From: Abyssibius alkaniclasticus
Lineage (GTDB): Bacteria > Pseudomonadota > Alphaproteobacteria > Rhodobacterales > Rhodobacteraceae
DNA: 64,000 nt
Direction: 5' to 3'
NCBI RefSeq assembly: GCF_020447305.1
Contig: NZ_CP095732.1
Coordinates: 1,148,501 to 1,212,500, forward strand
Translations under genes and position numbers: made by a program
Shown here: positions 7,759-10,012 of the stretch, piece by piece
Layout: each line of letters opens with the position of its first letter
Numbering within the stretch: position 1 is the stretch's first letter
The notes under the pieces: model-generated
The model's database searches: none
What the model was told of the DNA's origin: nothing
Seen by the model: the letters and a program-made list of their open reading frames with translations, nothing else

Positions 7759-8273
7759 GTTTGGAACTTCGCACCGAAAGGCTGCTGCTGCGCCCGCCCG
7801 TCCGCGCCGATTTTGACGCTTATGCCGCCATGTGGGCCGAAGAATTTGTTGCCCGTCACGTGACCGGCACACCGCAAAGCCGCGCGGACTCGCATATGCG
7901 GTTCCAGCGGGTTTTGGGGGGCTGGGCGTTTTCGGGCTTCGGGTTTTTCTCGATTTTCAATGCGGCGGGCCAGTATATTGGCCAGACCGGATTGTTCGAG
8001 GCCATGCGCGAGCTTGGAGCTGATTTTGATACCGCGCCCGAAGCCGGCTGGAGCTTGCGCAAGGCCGCCACCGGCAAGGGCTATGCGCTGGAGGCGACAT
8101 TGGCGGTGCATGGCTGGTTTGATGCGCAACCTTTCGCACAGCGCACGGTTTGCATGATTTCGCCCGACAATGCCGCCTCAATCAGCCTTGCGCAAAAATG
8201 CGGCTATGCGGCATTTGGCCAGGCGCACCATGCCGGGGGCGATGTTGTGCTGATGCAGCGGGCTTGCACCTAG
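7755..8273 (+). CDS. GNAT acetyltransferase of the RimJ/RimL type
   Basis: The 172-residue product begins LELRTERLLLRPPVRADFDAY, the standard start of RimJ/RimL-like N-acetyltransferases. It continues with GWSLRKAATGKGYALEAT (acetyl-CoA binding, G-x-G-Y-A-x-E-A) and ISPDNAASISLAQKCGY (the N-x-x-S-x-x-x-x-K-x-G-F/Y signature). Members acetylate protein N-termini or small amines; the target here is unknown. ATG 7755 overlaps the moaB stop by 4 bases. The next gene is separated by a structured leader. Confidence 0.88.
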   Translation: MSLELRTERLLLRPPVRADFDAYAAMWAEEFVARHVTGTPQSRADSHMRFQRVLGGWAFSGFGFFSIFNAAGQYIGQTGLFEAMRELGADFDTAPEAGWSLRKAATGKGYALEATLAVHGWFDAQPFAQRTVCMISPDNAASISLAQKCGYAAFGQAHHAGGDVVLMQRACT

Positions 8274-8301
8274 CCGCATTTGCGTTTATGCCGCCCCGGT
8301 T

Positions 8302-8316
8302 CCAGCATGGTGCTGG
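8302..8316 (+). other. Perfect hairpin preceding the preQ1-like aptamer
   Basis: CCAGCA (8302-8307) pairs with TGCTGG (8311-8316) around a TGG loop, immediately 5' of the riboswitch-like fold. It may insulate the aptamer from upstream RNA. Confidence 0.45.
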
Positions 8317-8351
8317 CAGAAGTCTCCGAACACCTTCTTAAAAAACACGGG
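8317..8351 (+). promoter_or_regulatory. Probable preQ1-I riboswitch in the leader of the queuosine-precursor transporter gene
   Basis: The leader matches the compact preQ1-I layout. P1 is AGAAG (8318-8322) with CTTCT (8334-8338). An 11-base loop ends in AACAC, whose last C (8333) sits just before the P1 3' strand, as does the preQ1-reading C of the Bacillus subtilis aptamer. An A-rich tail follows (six A at 8340-8345). Loop bases CCG (8326-8328) can pair with CGG (8348-8350) as the H-type pseudoknot P2. P2 lies 9-11 bases before the start codon and covers the only G-rich bases available for ribosome binding, which suggests translational repression by preQ1. The gene it precedes encodes a YhhQ transporter, the expected target. 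Confidence 0.75.
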
Positions 8352-8358
8352 TTAAAAC

Positions 8359-8979
8359 ATGAAAAACGGAATTCTCGCAGGCGTTATCGCTATGGCGGCG
8401 GTTGTCGTCGCCTCCAATATTCTTGTGCAGTTCTTGCTGGGCGACTGGCTGACATGGGGGGCGTTCACCTACCCCATTGCCTTTCTGGTGACAGACCTGA
8501 TGAACCGCGCATACGGTGCAAAAGCCGCGCGCCGCGTTATTTTTGCGGGTTTCGTTGTCGGCGTGATCTGCTCGCTGATCGGCACGCAAATCATGCTGGA
8601 ATTCGGCCCCGCCGTGACCTTGCGCATCGCCATCGGTTCGGGCACGGCTTTTCTGGTGGCGCAACTGGTCGATGTGCTGGTGTTCGACAGGCTGCGCCAG
8701 GGCCATTGGTGGCGCGCGCCGCTGGTCTCTTCGCTTATCGGCTCCAGCCTGGATACGGCGCTGTTCTTCACCATCGCGTTTTCAACATGGCTAGCCTTCA
8801 TCGACCCCGCAACCGATGTAAGCTGGGCCAACGAAGCCCTGCCGCTGCTCGGCCTCGGCCCCGTTGTGCCGCTCTGGGCCAGCCTGGCCGTGGCCGATTT
8901 CGGCGTGAAACTGGCGCTGGCACTGGTGGCACTGGTGCCGTTCAGGCTGATCGCGGGGCGGATGCGGGCGCCAAATTGA
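8359..8979 (+). CDS. yhhQ: Queuosine precursor transporter (YhhQ/VUT family)
   Basis: This 206-residue inner-membrane protein has about six hydrophobic helices. It shows the family signature YPIAFLVTDLMNRAYG (in YhhQ proteins 'P-x-x-F-x-x-x-D-x-x-x-E/N-x-Y-G'), then AFLVAQLVDVLVFDRLR and SSLIGSSLDTALFFTIAF. Known members import preQ0/preQ1-type precursors for tRNA queuosine modification. The leader (8317-8351) resembles a preQ1-I riboswitch, which agrees with this role. No classical Shine-Dalgarno precedes the ATG; the GGG at 8349-8351 is within the putative pseudoknot. Confidence 0.92.
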   Translation: MKNGILAGVIAMAAVVVASNILVQFLLGDWLTWGAFTYPIAFLVTDLMNRAYGAKAARRVIFAGFVVGVICSLIGTQIMLEFGPAVTLRIAIGSGTAFLVAQLVDVLVFDRLRQGHWWRAPLVSSLIGSSLDTALFFTIAFSTWLAFIDPATDVSWANEALPLLGLGPVVPLWASLAVADFGVKLALALVALVPFRLIAGRMRAPN

Positions 8980-9008
8980 TCTGATCGCGCAGGTTCACAA
9001 ATTTTTTG

Positions 9009-9036
9009 CTTTGCGATTTCGCAATTCAGTGCAAAG
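9009..9036. promoter_or_regulatory. Inverted repeat CTTTGC-N16-GCAAAG upstream of a very short ORF
   Basis: CTTTGC (9009-9014) and GCAAAG (9031-9036) are exact inverted copies, with a second small palindrome GCGATTTCGC at 9013-9022 inside. It lies about 40 bases upstream of a strong ribosome site, where a promoter or operator would be expected. A regulator-binding role is inference. Confidence 0.35.
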
Positions 9037-9072
9037 ATTCCCCTACTTGCAACAATCAGAAAGGAGGTGCCA

Positions 9073-9129
9073 ATGTCTAATTGGGATTTGGAGCTAGAGG
9101 TCAGGCTAACAAGCGGGGCGAAAATCTAG
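9073..9129 (+). CDS. Putative 18-residue peptide (leader or microprotein)
   Basis: ATG 9073 is preceded by a near-perfect Shine-Dalgarno AAGGAGGTG (9061-9069) and reads MSNWDLELEVRLTSGAKI to TAG 9127-9129. A strong intrinsic terminator follows 65 bases after the stop, so the unit looks like a free-standing short transcript rather than part of a larger gene. I do not recognise the peptide. It could be a leader peptide, a microprotein, or an incidental ORF in a small RNA; the unusually good ribosome site favours translation. Confidence 0.4.
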   Translation: MSNWDLELEVRLTSGAKI

Positions 9130-9194
9130 CAGGCAGCCCTGTTAGAGAAGGAGCCCGGCCTGGATTCGTTCCACTGGCCACCTCCGACCTGGGT

Positions 9195-9228
9195 TGGGCC
9201 GGTTCTGCGGAACCGGCCCATTCTTTTT
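9195..9228 (+). terminator. Strong Rho-independent terminator ending the short transcript
   Basis: TGGGCCGGTTC (9195-9205) pairs with GAACCGGCCCA (9210-9220), an 11-bp stem with a TGCG tetraloop, followed by TTCTTTTT. It has no long gene directly upstream on the plus strand other than the 18-codon ORF. Confidence 0.85.
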
Positions 9229-9297
9229 GCGGCTGAACTTTACCATTGCCTGACTTTGCACAGTGAATGCGCCAGGGAAAGAAGCATGAGAATTTCT

Positions 9298-9318
9298 TGC
9301 TGCTCTACCAACTGAACC
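9298..9318 (-). pseudogene. tRNA D-arm-like remnant
   Basis: On the minus strand these 21 bases read as a classical tRNA D-arm (core CAGTTGGTAGAGC) with stem GTTC/GAGC. Downstream on the same strand an imperfect anticodon-like arm (GCAAG/CATGC, four of five pairs) can be drawn, but U33 is missing and no matching 3' acceptor strand follows. It is therefore at most a decayed tRNA or a fragment left by integration. The rest of 9229-9405 shows no gene. Confidence 0.3.
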
Positions 9319-9658: not shown

Positions 9659-10012
9659 GTGCTGGACGCACATGAAACTTCGTTGGCATTGGCCGGTGGG
9701 CGGCGAGGGGTGTCAAATTATGACAATATTCTTGGCGCTATTGGGCGACCTTTTCATGGGTATCACCGCAAGATTGAGCGCAAAGCCGCAGCACTATTGC
9801 ACGGCTTGGCGACCAGCCACGGCTTTGTAGACGGGAACAAGCGGACCGCTTGGATATCCACCACAGTCCTGATCGAACGCAGCGGTTACGAGTTGGAGTT
9901 GCTTGAGGATGACCGTATAGACGATGTGGTTGTAGACGTCGTTGAAGGCAGTATGAACGAGCAGGAATTGGTGAATTGGTTCCGCGCGCGACTCCGGGCT
10001 TTGCCTGCCTGA
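9659..10012 (+). CDS. doc: Death-on-curing (Doc/Fic-fold) toxin
   Basis: The product has the Fic/Doc core HGFVDGNKRTAW (consensus H-x-F-x-D-G-N-K-R), with catalytic His and the phosphate-binding loop intact. Known Doc toxins phosphorylate elongation factor Tu; Fic relatives AMPylate targets. From GTG 9659 it has 117 residues, close to the 120-130 of Doc. The frame stays open upstream to 9611 and encodes NYRITLADV, which looks like the conserved family start, yet no ATG, GTG or TTG occurs there. The true start is therefore uncertain and may be a weak codon such as ATT 9644. It follows the putative antitoxin by 28 bases. Confidence 0.85.
   Translation: MLDAHETSLALAGGRRGVSNYDNILGAIGRPFHGYHRKIERKAAALLHGLATSHGFVDGNKRTAWISTTVLIERSGYELELLEDDRIDDVVVDVVEGSMNEQELVNWFRARLRALPA

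Follow-up and report, generated by a model that had tools for sequence, protein, structure and literature searches.

The window, a stretch of 64,000 nts of the Abyssibius alkaniclasticus genome, encodes a queuosine precursor transporter whose start codon follows closely on a short leader element (Table 1). With the E. coli-type equivalog model PRK11212, the transporter scores 107.4, under the cut-off of 252. The leader had been described by a sequence-only reading as a preQ1-I riboswitch with a P1 of 5 bp, an 11-base loop ending in AACAC, an A6 tail and a CCG/CGG pseudoknot, and all of these are present base for base at 8317-8351. The tail consists of U8339, six adenines (8340-8345) and CA, and is followed by the CGG (8348-8350) that pairs with the CCG at 8326-8328 in the pseudoknot, to which U8325-G8351 may add a further pair. 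The motif ends at 8351, with 7 bases separating it from the ATG at 8359. The element is linked to a queuosine-precursor transport gene, the leaders of relatives having been fetched via the transporter protein.

Table 1. Leader features and the transporter gene in the window (positions in the window).
Feature	Position	Strand	Remarks
Putative promoter	8264-8292	+	-35-like TTGCAC 8264-8269, 17-nt spacer, weak -10-like TATGCC 8287-8292
P0 hairpin CCAGCA-TGG-TGCTGG	8302-8316	+	directly 5′ of P1; -7.1 kcal/mol
P1 5′ strand AGAAG	8318-8322	+	direct reading; pairing and covariation in orthologous leaders
Loop UCUCCGAACAC	8323-8333	+	11 nts, 3′ end AACAC
U8323	8323	+	counterpart of the preQ1-contacting L1 uracil (role as described in the available part of PMC11625349)
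P2 5′ strand (U)CCG	8325-8328	+	CCG/CGG in 119/130 leaders; fourth position associates more than in shuffles
C8333	8333	+	counterpart of the specificity cytosine; the A before it is the type II signature (roles as described in the available part of PMC11625349)
P1 3′ strand CUUCU	8334-8338	+	direct reading; pairing and covariation in orthologous leaders
L3, A-rich tail UAAAAAACA	8339-8347	+	direct reading; A-rich tails in the alignments of relatives
P2 3′ strand CGG(G)	8348-8351	+	also the Shine-Dalgarno-like GGG; 7 nts 5′ of the ATG
Queuosine precursor transporter (Vut_1, COG1738/YhhQ-like), 206 aa	8359-8979	+	TIGR00697 92.1 bits (cut-off 50.95); Vut_1 100.8 bits (cut-off 27.2)

Taken alone, the window sequence is weak evidence against chance. 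A relaxed structure-only grammar (P1 of at least 4 bp, loop of 8-13 nts, A-rich tail and any P2 triplet) is satisfied by 460 of 2600 shuffled leaders, and the minimum free energy of the leader is not better than that of shuffles (z 0.62, with a folding program blind to pseudoknots), so that such folding was set aside as uninformative. P1 by itself is weak, at -1.4 kcal/mol. The minimum free energy fold of the leader pairs with AAAAACGGAA, located in the first transporter codons (8362-8371), a sequence that resembles the tail plus P2 3′ strand found in relatives and might compete for the CCG loop. Because the grammar is common in shuffles and the fold energy is ordinary, orthologous leaders were examined.

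The transporter was found by protein search in 273 of 295 genomes of the family. The motif is recognisable by eye in all 30 leaders of the best 30 transporter matches and in 18 of 21 further loci taken from named genome records, the exceptions being L041, L047 and L050. A further 80 leaders were chosen by protein coordinates alone, from about 160 places among the matches listed. P1 together with the CCG/CGG pseudoknot is found in 119 of 130 orthologous leaders, while three contain another triplet only and eight give no match; the count leaves out L256, which is cut at a contig end, from 131 leaders. The grammar used for this count fixes no base of P1, only the P2 triplet within the loop, and requires at least 4 A in the tail; where several parses were available, a G at the closing position was preferred, followed by the shorter loop. 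A second script, allowing a wider span, recovered the element in 122 of the 131 leaders.

Two alignments were analysed, whose rows were selected via a pattern that fixes some bases, and whose shuffled controls ignore relatedness. In alignment A1 (47 rows, 44 distinct, without L018, in which a P1 of CATG/CATG does not fit the pattern, and without a chance minus-strand match in L032), pairs 1-4 of P1 are formed in 44/44 rows and the outer fifth pair in 12/44. Sixteen cells are changed on both sides relative to the common pair, and neither this count nor the degree of pairing is equalled in any of 500 shuffles. The covariation score of A1 is 0.233 versus 0.074 in shuffles (0/500 as high), and when one partner is slid by a single column, pairing falls from 85.5% to at most 59.1%. 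Two further measures do not go beyond the shuffles: three pairs have a two-sided change (36/500 as high) and five pair types occur (183/500 as high). Alignment A2 comprises 30 of 48 elements, picked from those with a tail of 5-6 nts and excluding the window. Its P1 and P2 are 97.9% paired, its score is 0.136 versus 0.049 (0/500 shuffles), and three pairs are changed on both sides, a number reached by 5/500 shuffles.

Among 75 distinct leaders, P1 pair 1, the closing pair, is GC in all 75; pair 2 is AU in 70, UA in three and GC in two; pair 3 is AU in 70 and GU in five; and pair 4 is CG in 62, GC in 12 and AU in one. The fourth P2 position is UA in 37, CG in eight, UG in four, GU in two and unpaired in 24, and is thus Watson-Crick in 45 of 75, compared to a mean of 28.2 in shuffles that ignore relatedness (0/5000 as high). 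Covariation is thus present at pairs 2 and 4 of P1 and at the fourth position of P2; on the three inner pairs of P2, which are invariant, it is uninformative. The sequence-only reading had named a lack of covariation among orthologous leaders as grounds for abandoning the preQ1-I assignment; covariation was found, in P1 and in the fourth P2 pair. A chance match in one leader, for which the shuffled leaders and the z of the leader fold would leave room, is refuted by family-wide conservation and covariation and is given virtually no credence.

The layout of the leader is also shared among relatives. Of 120 distinct leaders, 93 contain a hairpin corresponding to P0 that ends no more than 3 nts from P1, versus 11% of shuffles, and at a control position 38 nts upstream only nine of the 120 leaders contain a hairpin. 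The gap between P0 and P1 is 0 nt in 64 of the 93 leaders with P0, and we infer a stabilising stacking of P0 on P1. Counting from P1, the interval -57 to -51 contains 87 occurrences of TTG(A/C) in the 120 distinct leaders, the window copy being at -55, and from this position the mRNA start would fall near the 5′ base of P0, which in the window suggests a transcription start near 8299. A sigma-70 consensus scan returned zero sites in 8200-9300, and the promoter in Table 1 was therefore called from comparative position only. At the other end of the element, CGG is followed by an A or a G in 72 of 75 distinct leaders, and 7 or 8 nts separate the base after CGG from the next ATG or GTG in 75 of 120 leaders. 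Hence P2 would hide a GGA or GGG at Shine-Dalgarno distance, and preQ1 binding probably turns translation off.

According to the available part of PMC11625349, class I aptamers bind preQ1 through a specificity cytosine, an L1 uracil, an adenine from the A-rich loop and a floor formed by a conserved G-C pair. In the family, the first loop base is U and the last loop base is C in all 75 distinct leaders, the closing pair of P1 is the invariant G-C given above, and P2 forms an H-type pseudoknot between the loop and the 3′ tail. Since these invariant bases coincide with the class I preQ1 contacts described there, preQ1 is assigned as the predicted ligand. The same source, as far as available, defines type II by an AC preceding the P1 3′ strand. 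This dinucleotide ends the loop in 70 of 75 distinct leaders and in the window, where ACAC precedes CUUCU. Type I, characterised by UC at this position, was rejected, as UC was found in one of 75 distinct leaders. Type III is described in the same text by a UU following the P1 5′ strand and an AAGG platform, and membership in this type was likewise rejected: UC follows the P1 5′ strand in 36 of 44 distinct rows and UU in only 3, while the P2 3′ strand is CGG, followed by A or G in most leaders, not AAGG.

From these signatures, the element is very probably a class I preQ1 riboswitch that acts on translation and has features resembling type II. The preQ1-I assignment of the sequence-only reading is borne out by the covariation, by the conservation of the leader with the gene and by the invariance of the preQ1-contacting bases, with ligand and regulation following from these as predictions. 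In the mechanism that we propose, the mRNA would probably start at the P0 hairpin, which would stack beneath the short P1. At low preQ1 concentrations, the pseudoknot would be open and the GGG or GGA free, so that the importer could be made. At high concentrations, preQ1 would pair with C8333, U8323 and the A-rich tail would hold it in place, and the G8322-C8334 pair would form the floor beneath it. The bound ligand would lock the CCG/CGG pairing of P2, thereby burying the ribosome-binding site and turning the importer off.

The queuosine pathway of the host provides a context for such a switch. Tgt is encoded in 30 of 31 relatives, the host included, while QueF, the enzyme that converts preQ0 into preQ1, was detected neither in the host genome nor in 16 of 18 other family genomes searched. 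Hence external preQ1 would be the useful substrate for the host, and the switch would exert feedback on preQ1 salvage. In a comparison drawn from 80 family genomes, some of them incomplete, QueF is encoded in 24 of 30 genomes lacking the transporter versus 7 of 41 having it (Fisher p 1.4e-7, uncorrected for ancestry). Transporter and QueF thus tend to replace each other. QueF is also encoded in 6 of 8 genomes that have the transporter without a recognisable element, versus 7 of 41 (p 0.0025, uncorrected for ancestry), in a comparison where the group of eight was chosen post hoc and the 41 genomes were not each confirmed to bear the element; G605 (locus L176) was treated by eye as element-bearing and is outside the eight. 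In the available text of PMC5372724, yhhQ is described as being under various preQ1 riboswitch classes in different bacteria, and preQ1 as the sole salvageable precursor in one configuration without QueF.

The same fold could serve another natural ligand, preQ0, queuine or guanine, instead of preQ1. The E. coli YhhQ was reported to prefer preQ0 (PMC5372724 and PMC10622847, in the parts available), the fourth P2 position is variable and, in five of the 75 leaders, AC is missing before the P1 3′ strand. Against this, the contact bases match those of preQ1 aptamers, for which preQ1 is a better ligand than preQ0 (PMC10622847, part available), and the lack of detectable QueF in the host, in most relatives and in 34 of 41 transporter-having genomes means that preQ0 would not become preQ1 there. 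A different natural ligand is hence considered improbable. It is also conceivable that the leader is structured without being a riboswitch, the 5′ hairpin and pseudoknot protecting the mRNA or binding a protein; P0 is indeed strong and sits at the putative 5′ end, next to a P1 that is weak alone. This would not account for the unpaired first loop U and last loop C, invariant in 75 of 75 leaders and matching the preQ1 contacts, nor for a gene that handles queuosine precursors, and such a role is judged very improbable.

No Rfam gathering match was found in the window. With the preQ1 model RF00522, stretches of 351 and 57 bases yielded no match at E ≤ 10, and the 3.2-Mb genome none at E ≤ 0.001. 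The sequence-only reading had anticipated that profile searches could miss the element, and RF00522 indeed gives no match to it in the window at any threshold tried. The gathering score of RF00522 (39 bits), which is a detection cut-off rather than a defining feature, is not reached by the window, and the best relative scores 20.6 bits. Of 20 loci scanned over their full length, 18 gave no match at the element. In L048 (Pontivivens) and L049 (Monaibacterium), where P1 is GAGG/CCUC and the tail AUAAAAAAC, the element does score with RF00522, at 19.4 and 20.6 bits, respectively, below threshold; in a 91-nt stretch of L049, the match has an E of 0.015 over all families and is aligned across all 45 consensus positions. 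RF00522 is over its cut-off in none of 240 genomes of the class, and the matches that 85 of the 240 have at E ≤ 1 were taken as chance. The yhhQ leader of E. coli K-12 likewise gives no RF00522 match. Since this gene is preceded by a described type III preQ1 riboswitch, a miss by Rfam does not count as evidence against the element, and Rfam was dropped as arbiter.

Searches were also run with R1, a covariance model trained on the 30 relatives of A2, the window not being among the training rows. In the 3.2-Mb host genome, R1 places the window site first of three matches at E ≤ 10 (16.4 bits, E 0.167); E is 0.0033 within the window, and the genome-wide value is not significant by itself, the host genome being counted as a miss in the wider searches. 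A second model, R2, gives the window 44.9 bits, with the window as one of its 14 training rows. In a sample of 292 genomes of the order, R1 matches 269 at E ≤ 0.1, those listed all belonging to the same family, and 245 at E ≤ 1e-4 by hand count, the adjoining gene having been checked for part of the matches. The genome G168 matches R1 at E 0.0025 yet does not encode the transporter. Three of 289 genomes in a class sample, each belonging to the same family, reach E ≤ 1e-4; a further 16 with a match at E ≤ 0.01 were rejected, the contexts being unrelated and the downstream frames containing no transporter. In a phylum sample of 249 genomes, R2 missed four listed family genomes, and its ten weak matches outside the family were rejected, with no transporter downstream. 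Among 50 transporter loci of other families within the class (L116-L165), R2 returned five matches with E of 0.23-1.4, none convincing.

The genomes that R1 matched poorly were followed up as a group of 25, comprising 19 of the 23 without a match (three of the other four were absent from the listing and one is the host genome itself) and six with a weak match. Twelve of the 25 have no transporter, and by eye the remaining 13 leaders comprise five with a recognisable element and eight without. In the transporter leaders of L170, L173, L177, L178 and L179, the riboswitch seems by eye to have been lost or to have decayed, and these loci provide natural material on the loss of a switch. It is possible, though doubtful, that the elements constitute a class I subtype confined to one alphaproteobacterial family, in which P0, as a 5′-terminal hairpin, stacks on a minimal P1 of 4 bp and the whole leader is the switch; such a subtype would serve bacteria that have abandoned preQ1 synthesis (no QueF) and depend on its import, and would decay or be absent where QueF is kept.

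Compared to known systems, the element is most readily set beside class I type II riboswitches (B. subtilis queC, T. tengcongensis; RF00522), with which it shares the small H-type pseudoknot, the G-C floor pair, the L1 uracil, the AC before the P1 3′ strand, the specificity C and an A-rich L3. The likely platform is the burial of part of the ribosome-binding site, as in the T. tengcongensis riboswitch. In contrast to RF00522 type II, P2 is mostly (U/C)CCG/CGG(A/G), P1 has 4 bp in most rows, P0 abuts P1, the score is below gathering and the gene predicted to be controlled is yhhQ-like. The type III riboswitch of E. coli yhhQ is similar in the kind of gene, predicted here to be controlled at the level of translation as well, and in the AC before the P1 3′ strand, whereas the family has UC after the P1 5′ strand and a platform that is mostly CGGA or CGGG. 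In our own reading, the E. coli yhhQ leader has a P1 of 6 bp and a loop of 9 nts. Class II and III preQ1 riboswitches share the metabolite (predicted here) and the same sort of transporter genes; they are larger HLout folds according to the available part of PMC11625349, and no such architecture was seen at the element.

A preQ1 class I riboswitch upstream of yhhQ is already known, since the accessible part of PMC10622847 describes type III before E. coli yhhQ and as almost restricted to gammaproteobacteria. A title search returned no report of a preQ1 riboswitch in Rhodobacteraceae; the elements may have been listed earlier in the McCown 2014 survey, and a Dinoroseobacter phage paper (PMC11806900) names preQ1 once. 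What is newly seen is the distribution of R1 matches in the family, the hairpin abutting P1 and the tendency of the transporter to replace QueF. A large alphaproteobacterial family, the relatives retrieved via the transporter from named records being mostly titled Rhodobacteraceae, thereby joins the likely range of preQ1 riboswitches, with no match over the cut-off of the reference model; surveys based on RF00522 would thus seem to undercount the class. Structure-function studies could also draw on dozens of natural variants in the family, among them compensatory changes in P1 and P2. Judging from the QueF pattern, the switch would govern salvage rather than synthesis, a role that makes an exchange of preQ1 between the family and its neighbours a testable prediction.

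Several minor observations concern the surroundings of the transporter. A match to the fluoride model on the minus strand (8371-8490; 14.5 bits versus a cut-off of 34) was rejected as chance. A Death-on-curing (Doc-type) toxin family protein is encoded at 9659-10012 (TIGR01550, 50 bits, cut-off 38.65). About 90 nts 3′ of the transporter, the region 9060-9129 contains an 18-codon ORF (9073-9129; MSNWDLELEVRLTSGAKI) preceded by a very strong Shine-Dalgarno sequence, AAAGGAGGTG, and a strong terminator follows at 9195-9220. A small ORF 3′ of the transporter is found in 49 of 51 loci (L001-L051), has exactly 18 codons in 42 of the 49 and in relatives often encodes a peptide resembling MSRxILERGVGTVREV. 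Sub-threshold matches to Rfam RF01867 (CC2171 ‘sRNA’) overlap this conserved small ORF in 18 of 20 loci scanned; hence RF01867 may represent an mRNA that encodes a conserved micropeptide.
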